Positions 11,932 to 57,153 of a DNA stretch of 64,000 bases are shown in pieces. The notes under the pieces were generated by a model. The model worked only from the letters and a program-made list of their open reading frames with translations, was not told the DNA's origin and ran no database searches. The stretch's first letter is position 1; each line of letters opens with the position of its first letter. Position numbers and translations under genes: made by a program. The DNA is from Streptomyces sp. Q6 (GTDB taxonomy: Bacteria > Actinomycetota > Actinomycetes > Streptomycetales > Streptomycetaceae), in the NCBI RefSeq assembly GCF_036967205.1, contig NZ_CP146022.1, positions 7,502,001-7,566,000 on the forward strand, read 5' to 3'.

Positions 11932-11964
11932 GGGCCGAGGCCCCCTTTCCATCGGTATCAGATG

Positions 11965-26711: not shown

Positions 26712-29674
26712 CAGGCTTCGGCTCCGGTCACGGTAGAGGCGGCAGAAGGCGTAGAAGGAGAGGCGGGCTGCTGCGGCAGGTACACGTACACGCCGAGGAC
26801 GTCGGCAGGCTCCTGCGGTACGACCTTCAGGCCGCGCACGATCTCATCGCCGGCCTTGCGCACCCGCCGGTGCGAGGCGTCGAGGTCGGCGGCGAGCGCG
26901 ACACCGTACTCCGCGATGTGGCCGGACAGGTCCGGCAGTCCGTCCAGGGTGCGGGTGATCTGGTTGCGGGCCAGCTGCTCGTGGGTGTTGGCGGCGGCCC
27001 GCGCCCCGAGGAGCGAGGCCGCCGCGTCGTCGTCGAGCCAGCGCGCCCGCGCCGGGAGACCCTCGAAGGCGAGCAGGCGGGCGTCCTCCGCGACGATCTG
27101 CCGCTCGCCGTTGCGGGACGGCAGCGTCAGGTGGAAGCGGTAGCGCACCAGGAGGAGCGTGGTGCGGGTGGTGACCGCGTCCGTCGTCACGACGCCGCAG
27201 CGGCGGGCCGGACGCGGCCCCGGAGTGTTCGCGTCGAGGGCCGAGTCGAGGACGTACGAGGCAAGTGCGCCGACCGCCGGGTCGGTGCGGACCAGGGCCG
27301 CCTCGCCGCGACCGATCGCCGGACTGGTGCGGAACGGGATCTCCCGGTCCTCCTCCACGATCCGCCCGCCGAGCACCGCAGCGAGCCCGTCGCGCACCCC
27401 GGCCGGGGTGCCGCCGACCTGCGCGGCGAAGTCGCCGGAGCCGTCGCGCGGGTCGCGGACCTGGGCCTCCAGGTCGCGCAGTGCCTCCAGGACGAAACCG
27501 CGGACCTCCTCCGAGCCACCGAGCGCGGCCCGTACGGCGGTGACCTCGCGGGCCACCTCCTCCGGGTGGATGGCGCGCTGCGCGTACTTCGAACGTGACG
27601 TCCGCTCGCGCTCGGCGGCCGAGTTCCACTCCCGTTCCATGCGGTCGAAGGACTCCTGGTGGCCGTCGAACTCGAAGAGGCTCTCCTGAGTGCCCTGCCT
27701 GCCGTGCAGGAGCAGCCATTCGACGACCGCGTCGGTGACACCGGAGGCCGTCTCGTCGGGGACGGAGACCGAGATGCCGAGGTCCTTCTTGATCTGCCGG
27801 TGCTTGGCGAAGAGGACTTCGAGGACCTTGCCGTCGATGCCGTTGTCCTCACCGAACATGGTGATCACCCGGACCTGGTCGCGTTTTTGCCCGTACCGGT
27901 CGACACGGCCCTCCCGCTGGTCGTGCCGGGTCGGGTTCCACGCCAGGTCGTAGTGGATCACCGCGTCGAAGGAGTGCTGGAGGTTGACACCCTCGGAGAG
28001 GCAGTCCGTGGCGATCAGGACACGGCGGACGGCCGGATCGTCCGCGTTCTCGGCGGCCAGCTTCTCGATGCGCTCCAGGCGCTGCTGCGGGGAGAGCGTG
28101 CCGGTGACGGACGCGATCAGTGTCTTCGTCCCCAGCTTCTTCTCCAGCTGCTCCGCCAGGTACTCGGCGGTGGGGATGTAGCGGCAGAAGACGATCGGGC
28201 TGTAGCCGTCCGCGATCAGCGACTTGAGGTGCTTGGTGAGGGCCTTGAGTTTGGTGTCGGACGCCGGGCCGTACAACTCGGCGGCTCGGGTGGAGAGTTC
28301 ACGCAGGCGCGGGTCGCCCTGCTCGCTCTCCGCCGCGCCCGGTGCGACATCCATGCCCTCAAGCCGGTCGCTGTCCGAGGAGTCGCGAGTCAGCGGGGCG
28401 CCGAGGGCGTCCGCCTCGGCGGCGGTCCGGGCGGCGGCGGACTCGGAGCGGGTCTTCAGGGTGCTGGCCGCGGCGGCCGGCGAGGACACCATCGAGCGGA
28501 GCAGCGCGATCACCGACCACCAGGCGATCCTGGCCTCCCGCTTGCCCTGCAACTTGGCCGTCTCCACCCGGTCGTTGGCGTAGGCGATGGCGTCGTCGAG
28601 CAGCGCCCGGTAGGCGGGAGCCAGCTTGTACGGCTCGTCCTTGGTCCACCGGTCGGAGGGGAACGCGGTCCGCTCGGCGAGGGAGTCGTCGGCGAGACCG
28701 TCCTCCTTGGTGAGGTACTCGCGGACGTCGGCGCGCTTGCGAGCGACGAAGTGCTCGGCGAGACGGGCCCGGCCCGCCGGGCTCTCCAGGTCGACCGTGG
28801 CCAGGTCAGGGCGGACCAGACCGAGCAGATTGCGGAACGCGGACTCCTTGCCGGAGTGCGGGGTGGCCGTGAGCAGCAGCAGATGTCGGTCCTCGTCGGC
28901 GGCGATCCGCCGCAGGAGCTCGTAGCGGAGCTGACTGGTGGCCGAGGAGGACGCCGGGCCCTGCGCGTCGTCAGCCGCGACACACGTGTGCGCCTCGTCC
29001 ACCACCACCAGGTCCGGACAGTGCCGTACGAAGTCCTCGCGATGCCGGGTCGACTTGATGAAGTCCGTCGAGATGATCGTGAACGGGTGGCGGTCGAAGA
29101 GCGACTGACCCAGTTCCAGGCCGCGCTCCAGACGCGACACGGTGGAGGCGAGAACCAGCTCGGCGTCGATGCCGAACTTCTCCCGCAGCTCCCCCTGCCA
29201 CTGCTCGGCGAGCGCGGGAGAGCAGAGCACCGCGAGGCGGCTCGCCTCGCCCTGCGCGAGGAGCTCCTTGACGATCAGACCGGCCTCGACGGTCTTGCCG
29301 ATGCCCACGTCGTCCGAGATAAGGAGTCGCACCGTGCGTTGCCGCAACGCCATCAGCAGCGGCACCAGCTGGTACGCGCGCGGCTCCACGGCGATCGACG
29401 CCAGCGCGCGGAACGGGCCGGCCCCGGAACGGAAACCGATCCGCAGCGCGGTCCGCAGCAGGCCCGCCGCCCGCTGGTCACCCAGGTCGGCCGGGCTCGG
29501 CGCCGCGAACTGCGCGGGCCGCACCTCCTCGAAGGCGGGAAAGACCGCCGCGACATCGTCCTCGCCGCCGCCCAGCGGGCGCAGCACCAGCATGCCGGAG
29601 GCGCTCTCGGGGAGCACCACCCATTCCCGGCCGCGGGCGGTCACCAGCGAACCGGCCGTGTACGTGGGGCTCAT
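26711..29674 (-). CDS. SNF2-type helicase, DrmD-like
   Basis: A 987-aa protein from ATG 29674, where GAGAG precedes the start by 5 nt and the N-terminus (YTAGSLVTARGREWVVLP) reads as a natural beginning. The frame is open to a TTG at 29743. SF2 motifs: DDVGIGKT at 121-128, VVVDEAH near 223-229, TATPHSG, IATDCLSEGVNLQ and HDQREGRVDRYGQ. This is the HepA/SNF2-like architecture of class 1 DISARM DrmD, and its gene is directly followed by a DrmMI-like methylase, as in that system. It probably translocates on double-stranded DNA or remodels bound complexes. Confidence 0.88.
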   Translation of the reverse strand: MSPTYTAGSLVTARGREWVVLPESASGMLVLRPLGGGEDDVAAVFPAFEEVRPAQFAAPSPADLGDQRAAGLLRTALRIGFRSGAGPFRALASIAVEPRAYQLVPLLMALRQRTVRLLISDDVGIGKTVEAGLIVKELLAQGEASRLAVLCSPALAEQWQGELREKFGIDAELVLASTVSRLERGLELGQSLFDRHPFTIISTDFIKSTRHREDFVRHCPDLVVVDEAHTCVAADDAQGPASSSATSQLRYELLRRIAADEDRHLLLLTATPHSGKESAFRNLLGLVRPDLATVDLESPAGRARLAEHFVARKRADVREYLTKEDGLADDSLAERTAFPSDRWTKDEPYKLAPAYRALLDDAIAYANDRVETAKLQGKREARIAWWSVIALLRSMVSSPAAAASTLKTRSESAAARTAAEADALGAPLTRDSSDSDRLEGMDVAPGAAESEQGDPRLRELSTRAAELYGPASDTKLKALTKHLKSLIADGYSPIVFCRYIPTAEYLAEQLEKKLGTKTLIASVTGTLSPQQRLERIEKLAAENADDPAVRRVLIATDCLSEGVNLQHSFDAVIHYDLAWNPTRHDQREGRVDRYGQKRDQVRVITMFGEDNGIDGKVLEVLFAKHRQIKKDLGISVSVPDETASGVTDAVVEWLLLHGRQGTQESLFEFDGHQESFDRMEREWNSAAERERTSRSKYAQRAIHPEEVAREVTAVRAALGGSEEVRGFVLEALRDLEAQVRDPRDGSGDFAAQVGGTPAGVRDGLAAVLGGRIVEEDREIPFRTSPAIGRGEAALVRTDPAVGALASYVLDSALDANTPGPRPARRCGVVTTDAVTTRTTLLLVRYRFHLTLPSRNGERQIVAEDARLLAFEGLPARARWLDDDAAASLLGARAAANTHEQLARNQITRTLDGLPDLSGHIAEYGVALAADLDASHRRVRKAGDEIVRGLKVVPQEPADVLGVYVYLPQQPASPSTPSAASTVTGAEA

Positions 29675-29739
29675 GAGGTCTCTCGGTTCCTTCGGGATCG
29701 TGGGGATGGTCGGGAGGGGCGCGGTGCCGGGCGTACGGA

Positions 29740-36093
<6,354 letters not shown>

Positions 36094-36189
36094 TGCTGCT
36101 CCCCGTCTCATGCGTTGTGCTCGAAGTCGAAGGTGAGTATCCCGTACGGAGCGTACACTTTGAATCGACTAAAGCGTGCGTGAATTGCT

Positions 36190-36249: not shown

Positions 36250-37690
36250 GTGGCGCTTGGGGCGGCAGGTGGAGAGGCCGGGCCGGGGGGCCTGCGAGCG
36301 ATGGCGGAGCTCCTTGCGGGGCTGCGGCGCTCGGCGGTCGGCGGAGTGGTGCCGGAGACGGTCTTCCGGGTGCGGGCGCGTGCGCTGGGGCTCGGCGAGC
36401 AGGAGCAGGGCCGGCTCCGCGCGGAGCTCGGGAAGATGGGGCTGCCGGTGCGTCAGATTGCGGTGCATGACGAGGACGACCCACAGGCTGGGCGCACGGT
36501 TGCACAGAGAAGTGAAGAAATTGTGCGCATGGCGGAAATGGTGCCCTTCCGGGACGCCGTGGTGAGGCAACTGCTCGCGCGCTACCGGGACTCCGAGGGG
36601 TATGTGACGGCGCGTGCGCTGGACGGAGTGGCCCGGCTGTGCGGTCTTTCGCCGCGCGAGGCCGCGGAGCTGCGGCGTGCGGTGCGGGTGCGGGACGGGG
36701 GAGCGGCGGACGCCCCGGTGCAGGATGCGGGGCCCCCGGGCGGGCGGCGGATGCACAGAGGAACGGGACCGGTGCCGTCCCTGCCGCGCAGGTGAAGGCT
36801 TCTGCCGTTGGCGCCAGCGGCGTGAGGGAAGCGAAACCCCGTGACGTCCTTGGTCCTGCCGTGACGGTCCCGGTCTCCGCCGCGCCTGTCTCCGCACAGG
36901 GGGTGCGGCCCCTTGCCACGCTTGATGCCGCCGTGGCGGCTGCGCACGCCGTGTGCGCGGCGGACCGCGTCTCATCGGGCAGGAGCCGGATGCGAAGGAA
37001 CTGGCGAGCCTGGAGCGCGACCACGTCAGGGGCCGTGCCCAGCACTGCCTGGTCCAACACAATCAACGGCTGGTGCAGCAGGTGCCCCAGTCTTACCAGG
37101 GGCAGGGGCTCTGCTACGAGGATCTGATCCAGCACGGCATGCTGGGGCTGATGCGGGCCGTCGTGAAGTTCGACGCCTCCAAGGGGTTCAAGTTCTCGAC
37201 GTATGCGACGTGGTGGAACGGGTAGGCGATCACCCGGTCGATCGCCGACTACGTCTCTCTCATCCGTATCCCGGTGCACATGCACGAGCAGATACGGAAG
37301 GTCGCGAACACCGAGCGCACCTTGATCGGCCAGGGGAAGCGGGCCGGGGTCGTCGAAGTGGCCGTGTTCTGCGACATGTCGGTGGGGCGAGTCGAGGAGA
37401 CCCGCCGTCTCAGCCAGCGCACCGACTCGCTGGATCGGATCATCCGGGACGGGGTGACGCTCGGCGACTTCCTGGGGCAGGAGCGTCCCGTAGCGGCGCC
37501 GGACGCGCTGGTGATGAGTGCGATGGTCATGGACCAGGTCTCGGGCATCATCTACGACAACTTCTCGCACCGCGACGCACGCGTGCTATGGGCACGCCTG
37601 GCGCTGGACGGCGACGAAGCGTCGACCCTGGAAGACCTGGGGTAGGGGTTCGGGGCCACGTGGGAGCGCACCTGCTCGCTCAGCGCCTTC
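36250..37690 (+). pseudogene. Sigma-70 family factor, broken by frameshifts and two TAG stops
   Basis: An intact promoter and ribosome binding site (AAGGAGG) lead into a GTG at 36250. The first 181 codons look like a sigma N-terminal region (VFRVRARALGLGEQEQGRLR) and end at 36795. The coherent sequence then moves to another frame (AKPRDVLGPAVTVPVSAAPV) and near 36960 to a third. That third frame carries sigma region 1.2-2: AQHCLVQHNQRLVQ, YEDLIQHGMLGLMRAV and GFKFSTYATWW. It is cut by TAG at 37223, resumes with ITRSIADYVSLIRIPVHMHEQ and region 3, then meets TAG at 37642 inside region 4 (LEDLG*GFGATWERT). Both stops are TAG. The simplest view is a decaying regulator. The 181-aa N-terminal part may still be made. 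Near 37690 the frame passes into an unrelated fragment. Confidence 0.75.
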
Positions 37691-38394
37691 GCTGCCCGCG
37701 TGCTCGGTGACGCCCATGCCCTCGACGACGGCAGGCCGCCGGCCACTGTGGTGCTCTCCGGGTGCACGCACTCACCGGACACGTCCAGGATGCCGGCGTG
37801 CAGGGGCGCCGCGACGCTTGGGCTGCTCAAGGGCGACGTCTCCTCGACGGTGCTCACGCTGGGCCTGCGCGGCACACCCGCCCTCGACTGGCATGCGGAC
37901 GCGGGCGAACCCGCCGTACTGACGCTGCGTCAACTCTCACATCGCGTCGTCCACCTGCACCACTCGTCGCTGTGGATCTGCGAGATTCCGGCGGTTCTGT
38001 CGGGTGCTGCGGACGCCTGCGGTCCCGCCTGTCCGCCGCTGGTCTGTCTTCAGGGGCAACCGTCGGCAACGGCCCTTGCCCTGCTGCGCCGGGCGCACGA
38101 ACAGGGGATCACCCTGCGCTACCACGGCGACTTCGGCTGGGGGGTGTCAGGATCGCCGCCAGGCTTCTGCCGCACGTGCCCTGGCGGCCATGGCGCTACC
38201 GCACGGCCGACTACCGTCGGGCTGCCTGCCGCCCGGATCTGCCGTCGCTCGTCGGCGCGCCCGCTACAGCTCCCTGGGATTCCGAACTGGCGCCAATCCT
38301 GCCCGAATTGGGCGTCCGAGTGGAGGAGAAGGCGGTCAATGACGACCTGATCGAGGATCTCGGCGCGCGCAGCACGAATACCGCGGAGTCTTGA
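37691..38394 (+). pseudogene. DUF2399 / TIGR02679 (Wadjet JetD-like) C-terminal fragment, frameshifted
   Basis: Starting around GDAHALDDG, the frame carries family-type stretches: SSTVLTLGLRG, then HSSLWICEIPAVLSGAAD, PLVCLQGQPSATALALLRRA and LRYHGDFGWG. A one-base slip near 38145 moves the rest to another frame, which continues properly as VRIAARLLPHVPWRPWRY, PWDSELAPILPELG and VEEKAVNDDLIEDLG. This is the toprim-like C-terminal half of TIGR02679 proteins, the nuclease partner in DUF2397/DUF2398/SMC/DUF2399 Wadjet-type systems (I believe type II). The N-terminal half and the three partner genes are missing. It is a dead remnant of an earlier defence system. Confidence 0.75.
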
Positions 38395-38466
38395 TGCCTC
38401 GTCCTGGATCCACAGCGTGACCGTGGGGCTGCGGACGCGACGAAGAGGTTCCGTCACGCTTGCGGT

Positions 38467-39581
38467 ATGCCGCCGATCTCCCTGGCCGAGCCCACCGGCC
38501 GCTACCTGACTTTCGAGGAGCGCGAGGAGATCGCGATTCCGCGAGCCCAGGGCAAGGGTGTGAGGGAGATAGCCCGAGCGATCGGGCGTGCCCCGAGGAC
38601 GATCTCACGCGAGTTGCGCCGCAACGCCGCCACCCGCAGCGGGAAGGGTCACGGTCGCTCAGGGGAAGGCGCAGCAGGCCGTGAAGCTTCCAAAGGCAGC
38701 CAGGCTCGCAGGCAACGAGAGGCTGCGTGAATACGTACAGGAACGGCTCGCTGGCAGTGTCCGTCGTCCCGACGGCCCGATCATCACCGGGCCCAAGACG
38801 CCCGCGTGGAAAGGGCTGAACAAGCCGCACCGGCAGGACAGAAGATGGGCGACGGCATGGAGTCCGGAGAAGATCTCACACCAGCTCCACGCCGAGTTCC
38901 CCGATGATGAATCCATGCGCATCAGCCACGAAGCGAGCTACCAGGCGCTGTTCATCAAGGGCCGTGGCGCGCTCAAGCGGGAGCTGGTCACCTGTCTGCG
39001 TACCGGCCGGGCGCTGCGGACTCCTCGGGCACAGTCGCAGAACACGCCGCAAGGGCAAGTCACCGCAGACGTCATCCTCAGCCAACGCCCCGACGCGGCA
39101 GGGGACCGCGCGGTCCCTGGACGCTGGGAAGGTGACTTGACCATCGGGACGGTCCGCTCCGCGATCGGCACGCTTGTCGAGCGCAGCAGCCGCTCACCGC
39201 TCCTGGTGCACCTACCCGGGCTCGCAGGCTGGGGCGAGAACCCGCCCGTGAACAACGGCACCTCGCTCGCGGGCTATGGCGCGATCGCGATGAACGCGGC
39301 GCTTACCACGTCGATGGCGCAGCTGCCCGAGCAGCTACGCAAGACCCTCACGTGGGACCGTGGGGAGGAACTCTCCGGTCATGCCCAGTTCGCTATCAAC
39401 GCCGAGACGAAGGTGCTCTTCGCCGATCGGCACTCGCCCTGGCAACGACCGACGAACGAGAACACGAACAGGCTGCTGCGTCATTATTCCCCGAAGGGCG
39501 CCGATCTCCCGGTGGTCGTCCGCGGACTTCGAGGCTAAGCAGGCACAGCACCCAATGCCTTCACGAGTTCAACCTCAGTGA
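38467..39581 (+). pseudogene. IS30-family transposase, frameshifted and 3'-altered
   Basis: The start (PTGRYLTFEEREEIAI, then ARAIGRAPRTISRELRRN) is the IS30 N-terminal HTH. Near 38648 the frame shifts and continues as VAQGKAQQAVKL, LREYVQERLAG and WSPEKISHQL. The DDE domain follows: GRWEGDLTIG with the first Asp, LTWDRGEEL with the second Asp, then RPTNENTNRLLRHYSPKG with the catalytic Glu. Near 39520 it shifts again (RWSSADFEAKQAQ) and the usual C-terminal RPRKTLGW region is absent. There is extra sequence (LPGLAGWGENPPVNNGTSLAG) before the second Asp compared with relatives. Inactive copy at the right edge of the defence island. Confidence 0.8.
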
Positions 39582-39771: not shown

Positions 39772-40501
39772 GGGCTTGCGCTTGATCTCAGCCCGGCCTG
39801 CGTAGAGTCCTTGAAGGCATGCGCTTCGGGCTGGGGTGCTGGCGCACCCTTCGAGAGGGCGTACGCCATCGGACCAGTGTGCCGCTCTATCTGTCGAGCT
39901 GTGGGCGGTCTGCCGGAAGTGCTCATGGTGCAGGTTGCACTTGGATGGCGCTGAATATGTCGTTGACCGGCCAGGCCGGCAAGCGCGGGGTCTTGGGTCG
40001 GATCGCCTCGGCGAGCCTGCGGTGTGCGTCGCGCTACCTGCGCCCCTGGGAAAGGCCGGCGATGAAGTGACCGACTCAGCAGGAGAAGGCGTTGGGTGCG
40101 GCCTGTCGGGTGGCGTCGTCGGACTCGGTGTCGCGTACGAAGAACCGCCCGCCCCTGTGCGAGAGCGTCGACGCGGGGGTGACCACGGCCGGCATCGAAA
40201 CCTGCTCCCACCTGCATGGGTGAGGTTACCGGCAAGGGTGACCCGCGGCGGCGAGGGTGGCCTGGATGGCCAGTTCATTCCAGTCGATCATGGCTGATTC
40301 CCTGCTGGTGATCGCCAGATGGCAAAGGTAATAGACTCCGGAATCCTTCATCCCAGTTAAAGGAAAAGCCGCAATGGAAAAGCCTGGCCAAGTCCACATG
40401 AGCTCCATTGACAACGGGCGTCACCTCCGGCTTCACTTCGGAACGGCCATGCATGTCGGTCTTGGTGGCCATCACCCGAAAATAAAGGAGGGGGCATATC
40501 C
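39772..40501. other. Gene-poor stretch upstream of the RiPP precursor
   Basis: No convincing gene. Local AT content rises after about 40300, as expected near a promoter. TTGACA at 40408-40413 is a possible -35 with only a weak -10 (TTCACT) 18 nt on. AAAGGAGG just before 40502 is an unusually good ribosome binding site for the precursor peptide. Confidence 0.45.
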
Positions 40502-40585
40502 ATGTCGAAGTTCCTCACCGCTCTGCGGTCCGTCAAGAAGAGCGAGCCGAGTCTCAAGAAGAGCGCCTGGTATTTCTGGTACTAA
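40502..40585 (+). CDS. Atropopeptide-type RiPP precursor peptide (27 aa, C-terminus AWYFWY)
   Basis: ATG TCG AAG … TGG TAC TAA encodes 27 residues behind a strong AAAGGAGG ribosome binding site. Residues 1-21 are a basic leader (MSKFLTALRSV, then two KKS blocks). The last six residues are Ala-Trp-Tyr-Phe-Trp-Tyr. Tryptorubin A, the founding atropopeptide, is built from Ala-Trp-Tyr-Ile-Trp-Tyr at the C-terminus of a short precursor and is cross-linked by a cytochrome P450. Here only position 4 differs (Phe for Ile), and two P450 genes follow. The expected product is a hexapeptide with aryl-aryl and aryl-carbon or aryl-nitrogen bridges between the Trp and Tyr side chains, released by removal of the leader. 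No dedicated protease or exporter gene is adjacent. The gene is easily missed because of its size. Confidence 0.9.
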   Translation: MSKFLTALRSVKKSEPSLKKSAWYFWY

Positions 40586-40603
40586 ACCAGTAGATCCAGC
40601 ACC

Positions 40604-40668
40604 GGGCCCGAACCCGGCCGAGCCGAATAGCCAACTGGCCCCGCCGAGTTCGGGCCCTCTTCTTTTCT
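40604..40668 (+). terminator. Attenuator/terminator between RiPP precursor and P450 genes
   Basis: GGGCCCGAAC (40604-40613) pairs perfectly with GTTCGGGCCC (40648-40657) and is followed by TCTTCTTTTCT. It starts 18 nt after the precursor stop, and the P450 ribosome binding site (GGAG at 40671) lies just beyond. Partial termination here would give many precursor transcripts per enzyme transcript, as seen in other RiPP clusters. Confidence 0.8.
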
Positions 40669-40681
40669 CCGGAGATCACCT

Positions 40682-41764
40682 GTGTCCGTCGTTTCCCCAT
40701 CGCTTTCCCGTGCCCGACGCGCGACCGTATTCGCCCCGCGACTTCAGGCGCTCATCGACGACCATCTCGGCAAGGACCTCGTCCGACTGGAACCGGACAC
40801 GATAGGCATCGCGGGCGCGGAACTCTCCGACCGTATTCTCTCTGCCCGGAAAGCCACCGAGACCGAGCGGCCGACGTTCAAACCGCTGCACGGGCGGTCC
40901 ATCGCCAAGTCCGAGGCGTCGTCCGTGATCCGGACCATCGGCAAGGACGTGCGCGAGGCGCTGGAGCGGCCGTTGCCGGCGGGGATGGAGGGTGCGGATC
41001 TGTCGGGGCCGTGGCCCCTCACCGGGCACCTCTTCCTGCGCGACCTCGTCCTGCGCGACGATCCGTACCGACTGCGCATCCTGATGTCCCGCAAGTTGGA
41101 GATCGACCCCCGGCTGACGTGGTCGACGATCGTCGCGGGCGCCGCCCTGCCGTTCCGGCCCGAGCCCGGCCCGCATCTGACGCACATCGCCAACCTGTTC
41201 GCCGAGGCGAGCGGCTACCACGACCGCCGCTACGCGATGGGCATGTACCGGCGCGCGGCGGCCCCCGTCTGCTTCACCGTCTCCACCCTCGTCGCCAACG
41301 CCCTCTGGCTCGGCTCGCCCTTCGACGCGGAGACCTCGAACCGGAACATCCTGTACGAGGCGATGCGACTGCTGCCCCCGTCCTGGAACCTGCTGCGCAA
41401 CCGCAGTCCCGAATACCCCGCGATCGATCCCCGGATCGGGCCCGGCGACGACATCCTCATGCTGCCGCTGCTCACCCACCGCGACCCCACCCTGTGGGAC
41501 GCCCCGGACGAGTTCCGCCCCGAGCGATGGGACGCCCTCGACCCGGACAGCACGCCCGGATACATGCCGTTCGGGCACGTCAGCGAGCGCTGCTGGGGAC
41601 GCCACATGGTGCTGCCGCTGGCGGAGCTGCTGCTGGACCGCGTCCGGCGGGACGGCCTCGTCGTGGCTCCCGGGCAGCGGACCGCCGAGGTGCCGCTCGT
41701 CGGGCTCCTCGGGGTGCGGACCGTCCACGTCGGGCACCGGAACCGGATACGCCATGTCGGCTAG
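40682..41764 (+). CDS. Short, divergent cytochrome P450, probable peptide cross-linking enzyme
   Basis: A 360-aa protein (GTG start, GGAG 7 nt upstream), shorter than the usual 400. The ExxR pair is E226-R229 (EAMRL), the PERW motif is near 280-283, and the heme loop reads FGHVSERCWG with Cys304. The fourth position, normally Gly (FGxGxxxC), is Val. I see no clear AGxxTT oxygen-activation motif in helix I; the corresponding area reads TVSTLVANALWL. This atypical architecture and the position next to the precursor make it the likelier enzyme for the Trp/Tyr ring bridges. Redox partners are not encoded nearby. It overlaps the next P450 by 11 nt. Confidence 0.88.
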   Translation: MSVVSPSLSRARRATVFAPRLQALIDDHLGKDLVRLEPDTIGIAGAELSDRILSARKATETERPTFKPLHGRSIAKSEASSVIRTIGKDVREALERPLPAGMEGADLSGPWPLTGHLFLRDLVLRDDPYRLRILMSRKLEIDPRLTWSTIVAGAALPFRPEPGPHLTHIANLFAEASGYHDRRYAMGMYRRAAAPVCFTVSTLVANALWLGSPFDAETSNRNILYEAMRLLPPSWNLLRNRSPEYPAIDPRIGPGDDILMLPLLTHRDPTLWDAPDEFRPERWDALDPDSTPGYMPFGHVSERCWGRHMVLPLAELLLDRVRRDGLVVAPGQRTAEVPLVGLLGVRTVHVGHRNRIRHVG

Positions 41765-42956
41765 CCGCGGCGTCGTCCTCGGCGAGGGCTGGCAGGACCG
41801 GGTGCACGACCTCTACCGCGAGGTGCGTGAGGACGGCGGGATCCGTCACATCCGCTACCCGGGCCGGGCGCCGGTCGAAGGCTGGGTGGTGACCGGGTAT
41901 GCCGAGGCGAAGGCGCTGCTCGCCGACCCCCGGCTGTCGAAGAACCAGGCGGTGCAGCGGTTGGGGCAGCACATCGGTCTCGACCATGGGCCGGGCGGCG
42001 GCCTGTTCACGCACATGCTCAACGCGGATCCGCCCGACCACACCCGGCTGCGGAGGCTCGTCCAGCAGGTGTTCACCGTGCGCCGCACCGCGGCCCTGCG
42101 CCCCTCGATCGAGCGGCATGTCGACGGGCTCCTCGACGCCCTCGACGGAGCGGCCGAGGCGGAGCTGATCTCCGAGTTCGCGCTGCCACTGCCGGTCGCG
42201 GTCGTCTTCGACCTCTTCGGGGCCTCGGACGCGGACCACGAGAAACTGCGCGTACGGGGCAACACCTTCGACGGCGGGCCGGGCGACGGCGAGGTCTCCG
42301 TCGTCACCGCCGAGAGCATGCACGCCTACCTCCGCGCACTCATCGCCCTCAAACGCGAACAGCCCGACGACGGCCTGTTGTCGGAGCTGCTCACCGCCCA
42401 GGAGGACGACCGACTGACCGAGGACGAGATCACCTCGATGGCGTTCCTGCTCGTGATCGCCGGTCACCAGACGACCGTCAACCTGATCGCCAACGCCCTC
42501 CACTCCCTCCTTATCCACCCCGCCGAACTCGCCGCACTGCGCGCCGACCCGTCGTTGGCACGGGGCACGGTCGAAGAGGTGCTGCGCTACGAGTCGCCGT
42601 CCGGACTCGCATCGCTCCGGTACGCCACCGAACCCGTCAGGATCGGTGAAGTGACGGTCCAGGAGGGTGAGTTCGTGCAGATCTCGCTGCTGGGAGCGGA
42701 CCGTGACCCTGCGGTGTTCCCCGACCCGGATCGGTTCGACATCCGGCGCGCCGACTCGAGGCACCTCGCGTTCGGCCACGGCATCCACCACTGCCTCGGC
42801 GCCCCGCTGGCCCGCCTCCAGGCGGAGATCGCGCTCACCCGGATCGTGGAACGCTTCCCCGGGCTCCGCCTGCACGAGGAGCACGAGGCTCGCTGGCAGC
42901 CGAATCCCCGCCACAGGGGACTGCTCAGCCTGCCCGTGCGCTTGCGGCAGAGCTGA
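41754..42956 (+). CDS. Canonical bacterial cytochrome P450 (class I, CYP105/107-like)
   Basis: A 400-aa protein of normal length. Motifs: helix I AGHQT at 236-240, ExxR E275-R278 within EEVLRYESP, and heme loop FGHGIHHCLG with Cys347. The N-terminus is soluble, so it would take electrons from a ferredoxin. Its ATG lies inside the end of the preceding P450 gene, so the two are co-translated. The minimal tryptorubin-type cluster needs one P450. This second one could install an extra bridge or a hydroxyl on the same peptide. A different substrate cannot be ruled out. Confidence 0.92.
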   Translation: MSASRGVVLGEGWQDRVHDLYREVREDGGIRHIRYPGRAPVEGWVVTGYAEAKALLADPRLSKNQAVQRLGQHIGLDHGPGGGLFTHMLNADPPDHTRLRRLVQQVFTVRRTAALRPSIERHVDGLLDALDGAAEAELISEFALPLPVAVVFDLFGASDADHEKLRVRGNTFDGGPGDGEVSVVTAESMHAYLRALIALKREQPDDGLLSELLTAQEDDRLTEDEITSMAFLLVIAGHQTTVNLIANALHSLLIHPAELAALRADPSLARGTVEEVLRYESPSGLASLRYATEPVRIGEVTVQEGEFVQISLLGADRDPAVFPDPDRFDIRRADSRHLAFGHGIHHCLGAPLARLQAEIALTRIVERFPGLRLHEEHEARWQPNPRHRGLLSLPVRLRQS

Positions 42957-43316
42957 CTACCCGGTGCGCAGCGCCGTCGCGGTCCGTGTCCTGGCCGTTC
43001 GGGCGGCGGTGTGCGTGCCGAAAATCCCGTCCGTGCAGGTCGGGCTGTTGAGCGGTGGTAGTCGCGGTGGATGCCTCCGAGGTGGTCGCGGCGGCGGATG
43101 CCGAGGTGTCGCGGTGTGCTGTTGAGGCGTGATCGATACGCGGCAGACGCTGCCGGGTGCCGTGGCGCGCTCCTCGCGGAGGTGGCGTCAGGCGAGCATG
43201 CCGGGGACAGGGCGCCGCACAAGATTCACATCCTGTCGTCCCGACAGAGATGTCGGCTTGTCGTATCAGGTCGCAGGCCATCTCCTCGTATCGAGAGGAT
43301 GGCCTTGCGCAGGGGC
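42957..43316. other. Intergenic region between convergent P450 and orphan genes
   Basis: A minus-strand frame runs across it, with a cysteine-bearing start (MACDLIRQADISVGTTGCE), but it becomes Ala/Thr/Arg-rich and runs into the P450 gene. I see no supported gene, terminator or repeat here. Confidence 0.4.
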
Positions 43317-44222
43317 TCAGCGGCACGCGTGGAGCAGGTCGGCGCCCGGATGGGGGTGTTCCCGGGCCGGTCCGTGGGGGGTCGAGGTGTCCTGGAGCGG
43401 CGGTGGGGTGGCGCGGCGGGCCGCTGTGCGGAGTGCGAGGGCTGACGCGCCGGGGCGCCGTCGCGGAAGGCGTGGTCTGGCGGTGGCGGCGGGTTCCGGA
43501 TCCGGCCACGCGTGCGCGGGGTCGTGGAGGTTGAGGGCGCGGATGTGCGCGGTGAACGTGTCGTCGGGCAGGGGGAGTTCGAGGTCGTCGTCGACGAAGG
43601 ACACGGCCCGGGTGATGTAGTCGATGGTGTTCTGCCGGAGCGGCGGCGGGGGAGGGGTGCGCAGCGACCGCTGGAGCTTCAGCTGGCGCAGGACGCGCAG
43701 GGTGGTGGGGAGGTGCGCGGTGTCGAACTCGAGCTGGGGATCGTGCGGAGGCGGGCTGGAGTTCGGGACGGTCTGCGCCTGCCACCAGGCGGCCGGGTCC
43801 ACCTCCTCCAGGGACAGATGGTGGAGGTAGAGGCAGAAGGCCGCGGCGTGGTCGCCGGCTCCGGCGGCGAACTGCCACCAGAAGCGCGCGCCGTCGTGGG
43901 CGTTCCCGAGGTGGAGGTAGCAGCCCAGGGTGCGGGCGCTCTCGGGTTCGGGGAGCAGCGTGTCGTCGAGGAACTCGGTGAGGTGATCCGCGCCGGCCAG
44001 GATGATGGCCGTGTGGCACAGGGTGGTCAGATCGCGGCGGGCGCCCACCGCGTTGGCGCGACGCGCTCGGCGCTCCAGGTCTCCTTCCGACGAGCCGGTC
44101 CGCAGCGGTACCGGGGCCGGTGGTTCGTCCGTGTCCGGCAGGGCGGACGGAAGGTAGTGGTAGGCGAAGTCGTCGTCGCGCAGGCGTGCGCGCGAGAGGA
44201 CCTCGTCAATCGGTGAGGTCAT
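43317..44222 (-). CDS. Hypothetical protein in an XRE-sigma operon
   Basis: A 301-aa protein. ATG 44222 follows AAGGA by 7 nt and lies inside the end of the sigma-like gene (17-nt overlap), so the two are coupled. The first 200 residues are helical with aromatic clusters (DDFAYHYLPSALPD, GCYLHLGNAHDGARFWWQFA, FCLYLHHLSLEEVDPAAWW). The last 70 are Pro/Arg-rich. No membrane span or catalytic motif is visible. The GNAHDGARFWWQFAAGAGD stretch recalls short helical-repeat proteins. It may be the effector or antagonist of the adjacent regulator. Family not recognised. Confidence 0.7.
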   Translation of the reverse strand: MTSPIDEVLSRARLRDDDFAYHYLPSALPDTDEPPAPVPLRTGSSEGDLERRARRANAVGARRDLTTLCHTAIILAGADHLTEFLDDTLLPEPESARTLGCYLHLGNAHDGARFWWQFAAGAGDHAAAFCLYLHHLSLEEVDPAAWWQAQTVPNSSPPPHDPQLEFDTAHLPTTLRVLRQLKLQRSLRTPPPPPLRQNTIDYITRAVSFVDDDLELPLPDDTFTAHIRALNLHDPAHAWPDPEPAATARPRLPRRRPGASALALRTAARRATPPPLQDTSTPHGPAREHPHPGADLLHACR

Positions 44223-45111
44223 CACAGGGTCCTTCCTCGAAGGTGGGGCTGGGGAAGCGGTCGGCGAGGGTGCGGCGGGCGTGCATCACGCAGGAGCGGA
44301 CGTCCGGCAGGGACAGCCCCATCAGGTCCTGCACGGTCTCCTCGGGGAGGCCGAGGATGAACTGGAGGACCATGACGTCGAGCTGCTTGGGGGGAAGCCG
44401 GCGGATGCCGTCGTACAGGCGCAGTGTCTCCCGCAACTGGCGCACGCGGTCGGTGTGGGTGCTCTGCCGGCGCAGGGCCTGGCTCGCGTAGGCGGTCTCG
44501 TCCAGGGCCGGGTGGCCGTCGCGTCGCGGGGCACGTTCCAGGACGGTGTCCCGCAGCATCTGCCAGGCGAAGTGCGAGGCGTTGGCGCTGGCCAGGGCGT
44601 CGTCCCAGACGATGCGGAGCAGGTTGAAGTCGTCCTCGACCGCGCGACGGGCCTGGGCCGGGCGGCGCAGGAACGTTGCGGCGTAGGCATGGAAATGGCC
44701 CTCCCGGCGTGCCCGGAACGCGCTGAAATCCACCGGCGGCGGGCTCCCGTCGACTCCCGCCTGGACGCAGCCGCTGATCCAGCCGGGACGCTTGCGGGCT
44801 TCCTGGGCGGCCCGGATCCACAGGTTGCGCAGGTTCAGGATGGCGCTGTTCGGCCAGCCCAGCGCGCTGAGCAGGGTATGTATGGGCTCCCAGCGGGGGT
44901 ACCTGCCCGCCGCCCGCAGCAGCTCGCTGATCTTGGAGCGTGACCAGTTGGTGTCGCGCTCCAGGTCGAGCAGGGTTTTGCCGCTGGCCTCGAAGGCGTC
45001 GCGCACCTGCTGCAACCAGGCACGGTGGGTGGGCCCGGCCGACGGGGCGATCGGTCCGAGCCGTCGCCCGGGTCTGCCGCCTCCGGATGTCGACGCCGGT
45101 GGAGGGGTCAC
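44206..45111 (-). CDS. XRE HTH and sigma-70 region 4 hybrid regulator
   Basis: A 301-aa protein from GTG 45111, which overlaps the stop of the upstream membrane-protein gene (GTGA). The N-terminal third has an XRE-like HTH (TLLDLERDTNWSRSKISELL). The C-terminal 70 residues resemble sigma region 4 (RLPPKQLDVMVLQFILGLPEETVQDLMGLSLPDVRSCVMHARRTL). The middle is helical, and I see no clear region 2, so it may not bind a -10 element by itself. It could be a one-component regulator that uses two HTH units. Its stop overlaps the start of the 301-aa orphan gene. Confidence 0.75.
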   Translation of the reverse strand: MTPPPASTSGGGRPGRRLGPIAPSAGPTHRAWLQQVRDAFEASGKTLLDLERDTNWSRSKISELLRAAGRYPRWEPIHTLLSALGWPNSAILNLRNLWIRAAQEARKRPGWISGCVQAGVDGSPPPVDFSAFRARREGHFHAYAATFLRRPAQARRAVEDDFNLLRIVWDDALASANASHFAWQMLRDTVLERAPRRDGHPALDETAYASQALRRQSTHTDRVRQLRETLRLYDGIRRLPPKQLDVMVLQFILGLPEETVQDLMGLSLPDVRSCVMHARRTLADRFPSPTFEEGPCDDLTD

Positions 45112-45308
45112 CGCTCGTGCTCGGTCTGCGTGGACGTGGGCCGAGGACAGCCGGGGCCGCAGACCGACAGGATCTGCTGCACGCACAGGCCGACGGAGGA
45201 GACCACGGCGATGACGGCGGCGGTCGTCTGCCCGAGCGCGGTCAAGGCGACACACAGGCCCGCCAGCGCTGTCAGCGCGGCGACGGCCACAACGGTTCTA
45301 CTGATCAT
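45108..45308 (-). CDS. Small membrane protein, first gene of the XRE-sigma operon
   Basis: A 66-aa protein from ATG 45308 (AAGGA 11 nt upstream; an alternative ATG lies at 45338). Residues 4-48 are hydrophobic and can form two short membrane helices (VVAVAALTALAGLCVALTAL, then AAVIAVVSSVGLCVQQIL). The tail is polar with CGPGC. Coupling to a sigma-like regulator suggests a membrane sensor or anti-sigma-like partner, but this is inferred from position only. Confidence 0.65.
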   Translation of the reverse strand: MISRTVVAVAALTALAGLCVALTALGQTTAAVIAVVSSVGLCVQQILSVCGPGCPRPTSTQTEHER

Positions 45309-45626
45309 GGATAGCGGCGTCCTTGCCTGAGGGAACATCAACTCTGTTACAGCTATGGGTAGTTGCCCCTCTTGGGGTGTGGTTCAGGTCCAAGGTCGAG
45401 GCTCGCATCAGCATGGATATCGCGAGGGTCGTGCACGCGGGAAATCACCGATCCGGGAACAATCGCGCCACCGGGCCGCCGGGGCGCGCGTGGGTCGGAC
45501 CGGGTTCGCCGGAGTGTGATCCGTCCGTTCACCGCGGGGCGACAAAGCGGTCACGGACGTCTCGTAGAATTTGAATGATCAAGCTCACGGGTTCGGGTGG
45601 GCGCACGGTGTGAGGACGGGGGCTGG

Positions 45627-47915
45627 GTGGGCGCTGAACAGGTGTCGTTCGGGGCCGTGCTGCGGGAATTGCGGCTGGCCGCGTCGTTGACCATGGAGGG
45701 CCTGGCGGAGGCGTCGGGCGTGAGCGTGCGGGGCATCGGGGACCTGGAGCGCGGGCGGCGTGCCGCGCCGCAGCGACGGACCGTGGCCGCGCTCGCCGAC
45801 GGTCTCGGGCTGAGGGACGCGGACCGGGAGCGGCTTCTGGAGGTCGCCCGGAGCGGGCGCAGCGCGGGCTACAGCCCTGTGGGGGTTCGGACCTTTCCCC
45901 GGGGCACGGACGACTTCGTCGGGCGTGAGCAGGAGCTCGCCCGGCTCACCAAGCTGGCCGAGCGGGCTGCTTCCCGGAGTCTGACCGAGGTGACCAGCGG
46001 TCCGGGGAGCGGGCGTTCCCAGCCGGTGGCGGTCGCCGTGTCCGGGCCACCGGGCACCGGCAAGACGACGCTCGTGCTCCACGCGGCCAGGGAACTCGCC
46101 GACCGGTTCCCGGACGGGCAGCTGGTCCTCGACCTGCGCGGCATGGACGATGTCCCGCCGGGCCCCGCCGAGTTGATGGTCGGTGTGCTCAAGGCGCTCC
46201 AGGTCGCCGACCGGGAGCTCGCGAAGGCCGGACCGCAGGGCCACGCCGGGCTGTACCGGCGTCTGCTGGCCGATCGGCGGGTCCTGCTGGTCCTCGACAA
46301 CGCCCGCGACGAGGCGCAGGTGCGTCCGCTGCTGCCGGGCGCCGGGGCGGGGATGGTCGTGGTGACGAGCCGCCGCATGCTCACGGGCCTGGAGAGCGTG
46401 CACCGCATCCCACTGGGCGAGCTGAGTCCTGACGAGGCCGGCACCTTCCTGACCACGCTCGTCGGGCCGGAGCGGGCGGAGGCCGATCCGGCCGCCCTCG
46501 CCGAGGTCGCCCGGCGCTGCGGACATCTGCCGCTGGCGCTACGGGTGGCGGGCAACTGGCTCGCGACCCGCACCGGTTGGTCGCTACGGCGCCTCGCCGA
46601 CCGCCTCGCGCTCGACGAGCGGCGCCTGGACGCGCTGGCCGCCGGAGACATACGGGTCTCCGCCGCGTTCGACCTGTCGTACCGGCAGCTCACCCCGACG
46701 GCCGCCCGCCTCTTCCGCCGCCTGTCCCTCGTCCCGGGGCCGGACGCCGGCGCTCCTCCGGCGGCGCAGCTGACCGGACAGCACCTGTTCGACGCCGAGG
46801 ACACGCTCGAGGAACTGGTGGAGGCCGGACTGCTCGGTACCGACCGGGACCGCTACCGGCTGCACGACCTGCTGTGCCTGTTCGCCCGCAACCGGCTGGA
46901 GGCCGAGGAGAGCGCGGACGCCATCCATCGGACGCGCACGGATCTGCACCGCTGGCTGCTGGAGACCGCGGTGGTCGCAGGCCGCTGGTTCGAGCCGGGC
47001 CACGGCGCCCCGCCGGCCACCTGGCGCGGGACCGTGGACCTGTCCTCCTCGGACAAGGCGCTGCTGTGGCTGAAGGCCGAGAGCGCCAACTGGCTGGCCG
47101 CCTACCGCGCGGCCGCGGCGGCGGGTGAGCACGCCACGGTCGTGGAGGTGGCCGAGGCGCTGCACTGGTTCTCCGACCAGTGGATCTTCTGGGGGTACTG
47201 GCCCGAGGTCTTCGCCACCGCGGCGCGGGCCGCGCGGGCGCTGGACGATCCGCTGCTGGAAGCGACCCAGACCAACTACCACGCCTGGGCGCAGATCGTG
47301 TGCGAAGGGCGTCCGCGCGACGGCGTCGACCGTGCCACCGAGGCCCTCGCCGCGGCCCGGCGGGCGGGCGACGCGGCGCAGCAGGCCTGGGCCCACAACT
47401 ACCGGGCCTGGGGCCGGCGCAAGGCAGGCGATCAGAGGGCCGGTCTCGACGACGTCCGTAAGGCAGCGGAACTCTTCGAAGTCGCGGGGGACCTGCACGG
47501 CAGCCTCCAGGCGAAGCAGGGCCAGGCCCTGGCGCTCGTGGAACAGGGCAGGAGCGAAGAGGCCCTCACCGCCTTCCAGGAGGTCGATGCTTTCCTGAAG
47601 GACGCCGGTGAGCGCGTCGAACCGCATGTCGCCGTCATCACCCGGCTCGAACTGCACTCGAACATCGGCGTGACGTACGCGCAGCTCGAACGGTGGGACG
47701 AGGCGGTCGCGCACCTGCGGATCGCCGTGGACCTCTACAACGAGAACGGCAATACGGCGATGGAGAGCCGCCGCCTCTACACCCTGGGCACCGTGCTGCT
47801 CGACGCCGGACGAACGGCCGAGGCGCACGAGGTGTTCCGGCGCACCGCCGCCATGGGTCCCGGCGCCGACCCACGCGTCCTCACCGACGCCCGCGATCGT
47901 GTCGCTCGCCTCTGA
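45627..47915 (+). CDS. XRE-NB-ARC-TPR (STAND) regulator
   Basis: A 762-aa protein from GTG 45627. Residues 8-62 form an XRE HTH (LRELRLAASLTMEGLAEAS…GDLERGRR). The NB-ARC ATPase follows with P-loop GPPGTGKTT at 140-148, Walker B LLVLDN near 220-225, a GHLPLALRVAG-type GxP motif, and a winged-helix segment (YRLHDLLCLFARNR). From about residue 450 the chain is TPR-like and ends with regular helical repeats. Streptomycetes use such proteins to switch on secondary metabolism after ligand binding to the repeats. It is divergent from the XRE-sigma operon. The frame is open 10 codons upstream, so the start is uncertain. Confidence 0.88.
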   Translation: MGAEQVSFGAVLRELRLAASLTMEGLAEASGVSVRGIGDLERGRRAAPQRRTVAALADGLGLRDADRERLLEVARSGRSAGYSPVGVRTFPRGTDDFVGREQELARLTKLAERAASRSLTEVTSGPGSGRSQPVAVAVSGPPGTGKTTLVLHAARELADRFPDGQLVLDLRGMDDVPPGPAELMVGVLKALQVADRELAKAGPQGHAGLYRRLLADRRVLLVLDNARDEAQVRPLLPGAGAGMVVVTSRRMLTGLESVHRIPLGELSPDEAGTFLTTLVGPERAEADPAALAEVARRCGHLPLALRVAGNWLATRTGWSLRRLADRLALDERRLDALAAGDIRVSAAFDLSYRQLTPTAARLFRRLSLVPGPDAGAPPAAQLTGQHLFDAEDTLEELVEAGLLGTDRDRYRLHDLLCLFARNRLEAEESADAIHRTRTDLHRWLLETAVVAGRWFEPGHGAPPATWRGTVDLSSSDKALLWLKAESANWLAAYRAAAAAGEHATVVEVAEALHWFSDQWIFWGYWPEVFATAARAARALDDPLLEATQTNYHAWAQIVCEGRPRDGVDRATEALAAARRAGDAAQQAWAHNYRAWGRRKAGDQRAGLDDVRKAAELFEVAGDLHGSLQAKQGQALALVEQGRSEEALTAFQEVDAFLKDAGERVEPHVAVITRLELHSNIGVTYAQLERWDEAVAHLRIAVDLYNENGNTAMESRRLYTLGTVLLDAGRTAEAHEVFRRTAAMGPGADPRVLTDARDRVARL

Positions 47916-56837: not shown

Positions 56838-57153
56838 CGCGGCGTTCGTGCGCCCCTGCCCGCGGTGCGGAAACCGGGGGCGCAGCAGCGGGCCACGACC
56901 CCCGCCCCGCGAGCCGACGGGCCCGTTCCTGGCTGACCGGAAGGCCATCAGCTACGTCCGCCCGTACAGCTACCCGTACAGCCGCCCCGCACGGCGGGGG
57001 AGTACGACGCTGCACTCGGGGACCAGAATCCGTGCGCTCTCGGTCATGACGTACCCGCCGGCCCGGCCTACCGTGACCGAGGCCTGCATCCCGCACGGCA
57101 CGGGCGACCCGCACCGCCGGCGGCCCGCACTCCCCCCATCGGCAGGGACCAGC
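56838..57153. other. Intergenic region upstream of the MFS gene
   Basis: No gene, terminator or repeat recognised in about 315 bp. A plus-strand frame is open through it but lacks coding character before ATG 57154. Confidence 0.5.

Follow-up and report, generated by a model that had tools for sequence, protein, structure and literature searches.

A probable two-P450 atropopeptide cluster of the laurentirubin type in Streptomyces sp. Q6, with predicted Phe4 analogues

Introduction

The lau cluster is an atropopeptide gene cluster with two cytochrome P450s, and both the cluster and its product were published by Biermann et al. (2024) (PMC11450843). The related MMG1121 cluster was found with AtropoFinder and then used to find lau, which led to laurentirubin (PMC11450843). 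Formation of laurentirubin needs both LauB1 and LauB2: the first P450 makes the tryptorubin scaffold, after which LauB2 adds an aryl ether between Trp5 and Tyr6 (PMC11450843). By the part of PMC11450843 drawn on here, a further modifying P450 has been characterised only in lau and in two exceptional clusters cited from Liu et al. (2024). One of those credited to Liu et al. may already have the core AWYFWY. Aryl ether formation is also the activity of the P450 DmlH, an aryl-aryl ether former (PMC12910431).

The window analysed here is a stretch of 64,000 nucleotides from Streptomyces sp. Q6. It contains what is probably, at roughly 75%, a three-gene RiPP cluster for an atropopeptide, on the laurentirubin-type branch that has two P450s, with Phe4 analogues of laurentirubin as its predicted products.

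Results

Table 1. Features of the cluster, in positions of the window
Feature	Coordinates	Strand	Basis
Conserved cassette (upstream region, precursor, B1, B2)	40242..42960	+	blastn against L063
Precursor gene, 27 aa; leader PSLK at residues 16-19, core AWYFWY at residues 22-27	40502..40585	+	ORF translation, NF038372 match
GC-rich hairpin between precursor stop and B1	40604..40657	+	folding z score, covariation
B1, atropopeptide class-defining cytochrome P450 (predicted scaffold cross-linking)	40682..41764	+	Pfam p450, relatives, alignment
B2, second cytochrome P450, of the type seen in MMG1121 (a Trp5-Tyr6 aryl ether is predicted, by analogy with LauB2)	41754..42956	+	Pfam p450, clade, profile search

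Cassette and precursor

The cluster consists of a precursor gene followed by B1 and B2, which overlap by 11 bases. An earlier note had described two P450 genes after the precursor; both match Pfam p450, and the span that it gave, 40502-42956, is exact. With the whole window as blastn query, locus L063 from Streptomyces sp. VRA16 (11.2 kb) aligns with 40242-42960 only (90.6%), and locus L039 (12 kb) aligns with 40450-41756 only, its alignment stopping at the end of B1. The same gene order of precursor, B1 and B2 is found again in many other genomes. A search of its own genome with the cassette DNA gives 22 matches, the cassette itself counted.

The precursor ORF encodes the 27-residue peptide MSKFLTALRSVKKSEPSLKKSAWYFWY, followed by a stop, and by eye a ribosome-binding-site-like stretch, aaaggaggggg, lies immediately upstream. 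Tryptorubin A has the core AWYIWY, and the core AWYFWY is indeed one substitution away from it, Phe4 for Ile4. The peptide matches the NCBIfam profile NF038372 ("tryptorubin family RiPP precursor") over positions 2-26 of 26 (E 2.5e-7), scoring 30.8 bits in hmmscan and 28.1 bits in a six-frame search, both below the curated cut-off of 33 bits. This profile under-scores the leader subclade of the window's precursor: genome G304 is not among the six-frame matches, though its locus has a precursor. The PSLK leader motif, present in 13 of the 68 precursors of the locus set, is an accepted variant of KSLK, and both such a motif and the Trp at core position 2 belong to the atropopeptide definition as revised in PMC11450843.

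The class-defining P450

B1 is a 360-residue P450 with a GTG start. It scores 44.1 bits against Pfam p450, above the gathering score of 22.8, and the profile covers residues 222-309 only. When 67 relatives are aligned with the window's copy (68 rows), conservation reaches 97% or more at 130 of its positions, including heme Cys304 and Glu226/Arg229 of the ExxR motif. The window's B1 has no substitution at strongly conserved positions, so the short protein looks complete. A comparison with known atropopeptide P450s, which the earlier note had proposed, gives 74% identity to its counterpart in the MMG1121 cluster and 56-95% to B1 of other loci, with 56-94% across one set of 59 other distinct loci; the class-defining P450 that belongs to the definition in PMC11450843 is recognised here by that identity. 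Identity at this level to P450s that adjoin tryptorubin-type precursors elsewhere marks the locus as an atropopeptide cluster and not a chance arrangement, and with the NF038372 match it bears out the earlier assignment. Among solved structures B1 has no close relative (best match 37.4 bits), and a structure prediction was set aside (mean pLDDT 34.6 with 13 close relatives).

The second P450

B2 is a 400-residue P450 with an ATG start, a Pfam p450 score of 106.6 bits (gathering score 22.8), the heme-binding stretch FGHGIHHCLG from residue 340 and the ExxR motif, as EVLR, from residue 275. It belongs to a family of 29 distinct full-length members, the window's included and duplicates of one genome merged, and in 29 of 29 loci its gene follows B1 immediately and in the same orientation, at a spacing of about -26 to +76 bases as extrapolated from alignment ends. 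The 29 proteins form a single clade (SH-aLRT 100), separate from the 22 that score best among 87 other P450s, and distances between B1 proteins track those between B2 proteins with r 0.91, a value that none of 2000 permutations reached. At E 1e-90 the B2 profile proved too loose a filter, matching 389 of 392 Streptomyces genomes. The score gap alone was used: six genomes exceed 700 bits and the next stands at 522.

Against 177635 PDB sequences, a profile from a 12-row B2 alignment finds DmlH (8w6z), which carries out aryl-ether coupling in cihanmycin and is not known as a RiPP enzyme, as its best match at 411.9 bits, followed by TamI (404.6), CYP107L2 (388.7) and PikC (387.2). In a single-sequence search with B2, CYP107L2 and PikC outscore DmlH, and the nearest solved folds to the B2 model (pLDDT 74.3) are CYP107L2, which ranks first, and DmlH. 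B2 is CYP107-like by sequence and fold searches, but its clade is a separate one linked to atropopeptide loci. The earlier note's own test, whether the P450s group with unrelated hydroxylases, leaves the proposal unrefuted.

The I-helix of B2 carries Gln (Gln239 in the window's copy) in 29 of 29 members, where the 87 compared P450s have Glu or Asp. This residue is a small new observation, for which the parts of the literature consulted, including those of PMC9023744 and PMC11843346, hold no precedent. It was ruled out as proof of coupling, since DmlH keeps Glu in its I-helix (AGYETT) and couples with it in place.

Core residues and B2 presence

AWYFWY is the commonest core among B2 loci (23 of 29), with Ile4 in five and Val4 in one. 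All 29 keep Trp5 and Tyr6, which the ether of laurentirubin links, and Tyr6 is missing in 7 of the 37 loci that have neither B2 nor a remnant. The seven loci lacking Tyr6 group together at 83/64 and may represent one event.

Within the 68-locus set, Phe4 occurs in 23 B2 loci, in two loci with a B2 remnant, and in L039, nested among B2 holders but itself lacking a B2 match. The tree has four changes of Phe4 and four of B2, and an independent-pairs test on an earlier 60-row tree is not significant (three pairs on well-supported branches, median p 0.5). Co-evolution of Phe4 and B2 is attractive in raw counts and not significant once ancestry is used. Two loci entered neither the 68-row tree nor the counts of hairpins and cores: L029, whose KNLK motif was missed by the search pattern and which has an AWYIWY core and no B2 match in a locus ending 292 bases past the B1 alignment, and L186, whose B1 and B2 are broken into frames.

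Hairpin between precursor and B1

The hairpin has a 10-bp outer stem, GGGCCCGAAC/GTTCGGGCCC, followed by a C/T-rich stretch. The region 40583-40690 folds with a z score of -3.15 (0 of 200 shuffles as low), and the hairpin shows covariation in 11 sequences; it is a small new observation. A scan of 40200-43100 for promoters and terminators gave a single promoter-like match, which lies on the minus strand, and nothing resembling a terminator, so by that scan the hairpin does not count as a U-tract terminator of the classical kind. It likely sets the ratio of precursor to enzyme.

Discussion

Reaction of the second P450

The least probable account of B2 is that it is an unrelated small-molecule P450 merely neighbouring the cluster. 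P450-like sequence is common in this genome, as the matches to cassette DNA indicate, and the loose profile search reached nearly every Streptomyces genome, but the whole family adjoins B1, the two genes overlap in the window, B2 forms its own clade and is co-inherited with B1, and homology with L063 stops at the end of B2. Hydroxylation of the B1 product (mass +16) instead of coupling would suit a CYP107-like enzyme whose nearest solved relatives besides DmlH are mostly described as hydroxylases or monooxygenases. It is nonetheless unlikely: LauB2 forms an ether (PMC11450843), the top profile match is the ether-forming DmlH, and the exchange of the I-helix acid for Gln throughout the family, suggestive at most given that DmlH couples with Glu, points the same way. 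Given what LauB2 does and the relationship to DmlH, an ether is the likelier outcome and a hydroxyl the less likely one.

B2 of the Phe4 branch might also be functionally matched to Phe4, oxidising or cross-linking that residue or joining other positions. The confinement of Phe4 to B2 holders, remnants and the nested L039 (26 of 26) speaks for this, but the changes on the tree are few and the pairs test gives no support. A plain Phe ring has no phenol or indole N-H, unlike the residues of known bonds. The characterised lau core also has Ile4 (PMC11450843), and a matched pair is improbable. Slightly more doubtful still is a retuned B2 that, with its I-helix Gln, has become a purely dehydrogenative coupler using the additional aromatic ring at position 4 for a fourth or fifth bridge unlike the laurentirubin ether. 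The extra bridge is expected at Trp5-Tyr6 and not at Phe4, because B2 also occurs with Ile4 (5/29) and Val4 (1/29) and Phe4 persists in L039 without a B2 match; this goes against the earlier suggestion that the Phe4 ring could be cross-linked.

Predicted pathway and product

With a Trp5-Tyr6 ether, the most likely product is predicted to be Phe4 laurentirubin, AWYFWY minus 6 H ([M+H]+ 929.3617), or its pentapeptide (858.3246). Calculated in the same way, the masses of varsorubin B1 and of both laurentirubins come out correctly. The precursor would be produced in larger amounts than the enzymes, with the hairpin contributing, and its PSLK leader would dock the peptide on B1, as in the published AlphaFold model of tryptorubin's pair. 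By analogy with the family, B1 would form Trp2-Trp5 C-C, Trp2-Tyr3 C-N and Trp5-backbone C-N bonds in AWYFWY (net -4 H). B2 would then add one Trp5-Tyr6 aryl ether (-2 H more), as the example of LauB2 and the relationship to DmlH suggest, and peptidases encoded elsewhere would remove the leader and perhaps Ala1. A congener with one additional bridge or hydroxyl had been forecast; one bridge more than tryptorubin is probable, and the hydroxyl is the weaker part.

The locus offers a compact 2.5-kb cassette for a predicted four-bridge atropopeptide with an aromatic residue 4, and its B2 is one of at least 29 second P450s, most of which occur together with an AWYFWY core. Its natural variants (Phe, Ile or Val at position 4; B2 present, decayed or absent) allow asking what the second P450 needs. 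Two minor traits, the I-helix Gln and the hairpin, also lend themselves to testing.

Comparison with known systems

Neither the two P450s nor the core is a novelty: lau is in print (PMC11450843), and AWYFWY recurs across most of the 29 two-P450 loci, MMG1121 included. The cluster falls in a branch described before, and the precise compound that it makes may still await isolation. The trp cluster of tryptorubin A has one P450 and three bridges (PMC11450843). It shares the leader-core layout and the class P450, and its core, with Ile4, is one residue apart. The lau cluster of S. laurentii ATCC 31255, which makes laurentirubin B, has the same set of precursor, class P450 and second P450, whereas its LauA core gives WYIWY with Ile4 (PMC11450843). 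LauB2 of S. laurentii was not found among the retrieved loci, and the putative orthology of B2 with LauB2 runs via the MMG1121 second P450, with which B2 shares one clade, and the statement in PMC11450843.

The MMG1121 locus (L075), for whose cluster the available part of PMC11450843 reports no product, has the window's core and gene order, with B1 74% and B2 64% identical; its leader ends in QKSLKAS (KSLK motif), whereas the window's ends in SEPSLKKS (PSLK). The nearest relative with all parts is L063 of Streptomyces sp. VRA16, which has the same core, a B1 95% and a B2 90% identical, and, within its 11.2 kb, alignment to the window confined to the cassette.

The cassette and its precursor

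The cassette is a two-P450 atropopeptide cluster and a further member of that group. The earlier note described an AWYFWY precursor followed by two P450 genes, and this arrangement is confirmed: both enzymes, the class-defining B1 and the second P450 B2, match Pfam p450, and their genes overlap by 11 bases.

Features of the cassette, its surroundings and the remnant loci
Feature	Sequence	Coordinates	Strand	Remarks
Precursor gene	window	40502-40585	+	ORF translating to MSKFLTALRSVKKSEPSLKKSAWYFWY
Hairpin	window	40604-40657	+	GC-rich, between precursor stop and B1
B1	window	40682-41764	+	P450, 360 aa, GTG start
B2	window	41754-42956	+	P450, 400 aa
UvrD-like helicase, McrBC component (PF10117), AAA protein with DUF4357	window	9796-15017	-	McrBC-like restriction genes
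2123-aa protein	window	within 22596-36111	-	N-terminal protein kinase plus DruE-like helicase part with MZB domain
1010-aa helicase	window	within 22596-36111	-	PADLOC model DpdE, 1641 bits
1371-aa methylase	window	within 22596-36111	-	DrmMI/type IIG-like
Sigma factor regions 2 and 3	window	36953-37645	+	two separate adjoining ORFs
Transposase-like frames	window	38467-39538	+	just 5' of the cassette, apparently split over frames
Decayed second P450	L054	5667-6293	-	after B1, AWYFWY locus; roughly the final quarter (query residues 294-398) left, in open frame behind a GC-rich repeat
Decayed second P450	L055	4594-5061	+	after B1, AWYFWY locus; about the first third (residues 18-132) left

The NCBIfam tryptorubin-family model scores the precursor at 30.8 bits, against a cut-off of 33. 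At E up to 1 the cassette is its sole match in the window's own genome; at that threshold 4 of 14 control genomes contain matches, none over the cut-off. At E 0.001 it matches 44/392 Streptomyces genomes versus 0/14 controls, in 45 places, one being the cassette here and the remaining 44 lying elsewhere, with two in G358. All 44 other loci carry a close relative of B1.

B1 is 56 to 95% identical to its relatives at other loci. In an alignment of 68 rows that counts the window's own, conservation reaches at least 97% at 130 positions of window B1, and flagged differences occur only at the protein ends and in a three-residue insertion.

Homology to Streptomyces sp. VRA16 (L063) is confined to 40242-42960, and homology to L039, a locus without B2, to 40450-41756, stopping at the end of B1. 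The cassette is thus compact, with flanks not common to these three loci. Protease and transporter families have no match among the six nearest predicted neighbors scanned (36953-39535, 43317-47912), and an MFS transporter lies at 56848, 14 kb away.

B2 and its predicted reaction

Judged from gene position and phylogeny, B2 appears to be an enzyme dedicated to atropopeptides and inherited together with B1. A non-exhaustive scan of the genome_contigs collection with a four-B2 alignment and two peptide patterns placed B1 and a precursor at 16 (L063-L077, L106) of the best 80 of 279 B2-related stretches. B2 exceeds 700 bits in six of 392 Streptomyces genomes, its own included; the next, G121, scores 522 bits and lacks B1 in flanks of 1.5 kb. 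At 1e-140, B2 matched 12/394 genomes of the family and 4/395 relatives, yielding 12 new loci with B1 in all, in broken frames at L186.

Merging duplicates and leaving out L186 gives 29 distinct full-length B2 with B1 at the same locus, all on B1's strand and about -26 to +76 bases from it. The earlier note would have been refuted by P450s that group with unrelated small-molecule hydroxylases; the 29 B2 fall together in a single clade (SH-aLRT 100), separate from the 22 highest-scoring among 87 P450s without B1. B1 and B2 distances correlate with r 0.91, a value reached by 0/2000 permutations. At the two-P450 locus L186 and G799:C1:7313874-7315757, the reading frames of both P450 genes are broken, through either sequencing error or pseudogenization, and recall the sequencing artifact that PMC11450843 reports for the S. 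laurentii laurentirubin (lau) cluster.

The B2 I-helix reads AGHQT or AGHQS in 29/29. Of the other P450s, 87 are validly aligned (the L054 remnant, an 88th row, is misaligned), and at the Gln position 85 of them have Glu and two Asp; this position normally carries the acid residue of the oxygen-activating pair. The corresponding B1 segment is CFT[VI][SA], with no acid, in 68/68 rows.

Of the 162 PDB sequences that a 12-B2 profile finds at E up to 1e-60, DmlH (8w6z) ranks first with 411.9 bits, followed by TamI (404.6), CYP107L2 (388.7), and PikC (387.2). CYP107L2 comes first in both the single-sequence search, where DmlH falls behind PikC, and the fold search, where DmlH is second. DmlH is listed as an aryl-aryl ether former in cihanmycin biosynthesis (PMC12910431, in excerpt). 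It keeps the I-helix Glu (AGYETT) where B2 has Gln, so Gln is not required for coupling. By analogy, the relationship to DmlH, together with the lau second P450 LauB2, credited with a Trp5-Tyr6 aryl ether, favors that ether as the B2 reaction. Both residues are kept in 29/29 B2 loci; Tyr6 is absent from 7/37 loci without B2 or remnant, and those seven cluster together (83/64).

The product is likely a Phe4 laurentirubin, perhaps new to the literature. The string AWYFWY occurs in the main text of none of the four papers listed by a search with core sequences and two compound names. Predicted [M+H]+ values are 931.3774 (minus 4 H) and 929.3617 (minus 6 H) for AWYFWY, and 860.3402 and 858.3246 for WYFWY. 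Calculated in the same way, varsorubin B1 comes to 791.3511 and the two laurentirubins to 895.3774 and 824.3402; PMC11450843 gives 791.3511 (calculated) and 895.3760 and 824.3401 (observed).

Core residue 4 and B2

In the 68 tree loci, a set biased because many were fetched by way of B2, Phe4 occurs with B2 in 23, with a B2 remnant in two (L015/L054 and L018/L055), and without B2 in one (L039, whose B1 is 91% identical to the window's). B2 also accompanies Ile4 (five) and Val4 (one), and the other loci without B2 carry Ile (14), Leu (11), Gly (6), or His (5). A Streptomyces-only sample of 45 loci from 392 genomes (precursor-model loci minus L029, plus a G304 locus found by B2) has Phe4 with B2 in five, with a remnant in two, and with neither in one; Ile4 with B2 in one; and neither Phe4 nor B2 in 36.

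On the B1 tree, every B2 holder falls inside one 47-row clade (99/97), within which B2 is absent from a 14-row group, L028, and L039. L028, nested among B2 holders, has the core SWYIWY (Ser1) and no B2 match. B2 looks ancestral to this clade and would have been lost repeatedly; the counts of changes, four for B2 with remnants taken as present and four for Phe4, carry no direction. An independent-pairs test on the first 60-row tree finds three pairs on well-supported branches (four on all), with median p 0.5. With so few pairs significance is out of reach, so a functional tie between Phe4 and B2 cannot be claimed, nor is it excluded. The earlier interpretation is partly supported: the atropopeptide cluster stands, and an extra bridge is probable, predicted as the Trp5-Tyr6 ether and not at Phe4, since B2 also accompanies Ile4 and Val4.

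A hairpin between precursor and B1

The 108-base stretch across the precursor-B1 gap has a folding z of -3.15, with 0/200 shuffles as low. Against 60 dinucleotide shuffles, the gap's z is below -2 in 57/68 loci and between -1.99 and -0.70 in eight; the 43-base gaps of L025, L030, and L032 fold worse than shuffles. Covariation was scored over 19 pairs in 11 sequences whose leaders are of the PSLK type (the window and ten others of its subclade). Paired cells (93.3% versus a shuffled mean of 82.1%), two-sided changes (21 cells versus 8.5), and covariation score (0.259 versus 0.098) were each reached by 0/500 shuffles, pairs with two-sided change (7 versus 4.8) by 28/500, and further pair types (12 versus 10.4) by 107/500. 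Pairing falls to 21-46% when the 3' side is shifted by 1-3 columns, a control that leans towards the hairpin because the structure derives from the same sequences.

A terminator scan found no U-tract terminator at the hairpin. The hairpin would likely hold back readthrough or stabilize the precursor message, so that peptide would exceed enzyme. Such a role is in keeping with the 100-fold yield gain from a ribosome-binding site added before the sva P450 (PMC11450843, in excerpt). Among the RiPP papers listed by one search for this kind of feature, titles and abstract beginnings show no evident precedent for such a precursor-enzyme hairpin.

Neighboring genes

The three long genes encoding the 2123-, 1010-, and 1371-aa proteins look like a phage-defense operon with an unusual kinase-helicase fusion, and the McrBC-like genes lie upstream of it. 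The 316-aa transposase-like frame has no Pfam match; by eye, these frames are presumably IS30-like. The sigma factor ORFs are perhaps one broken gene.

Comparison with published systems

Biermann et al. 2024 (PMC11450843) redefine the family by its class P450, a motif resembling KSLK, and Trp2. The earlier note contrasted the two P450s here with the single one of the founding cluster; two P450s are also present in a cluster that the same paper describes from Streptomyces sp. MMG1121, then used to find lau. The paper reports that LauB1 alone gives tryptorubin B and the whole lau cluster gives laurentirubin B with a Trp-Tyr aryl ether added; it states that lau is the only characterized cluster with an additional modifying P450 apart from two exceptions credited to Liu et al. 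2024. Tan et al. 2025 (PMC12352619, in excerpt) mention a tree of 288 atropopeptide-type P450s and give the LauA product as WYIWY, with Ile where the window's core has Phe4. The MMG1121 cluster (L075) shares the core AWYFWY with the window, and its B1 and B2 are 74% and 64% identical to the window's.
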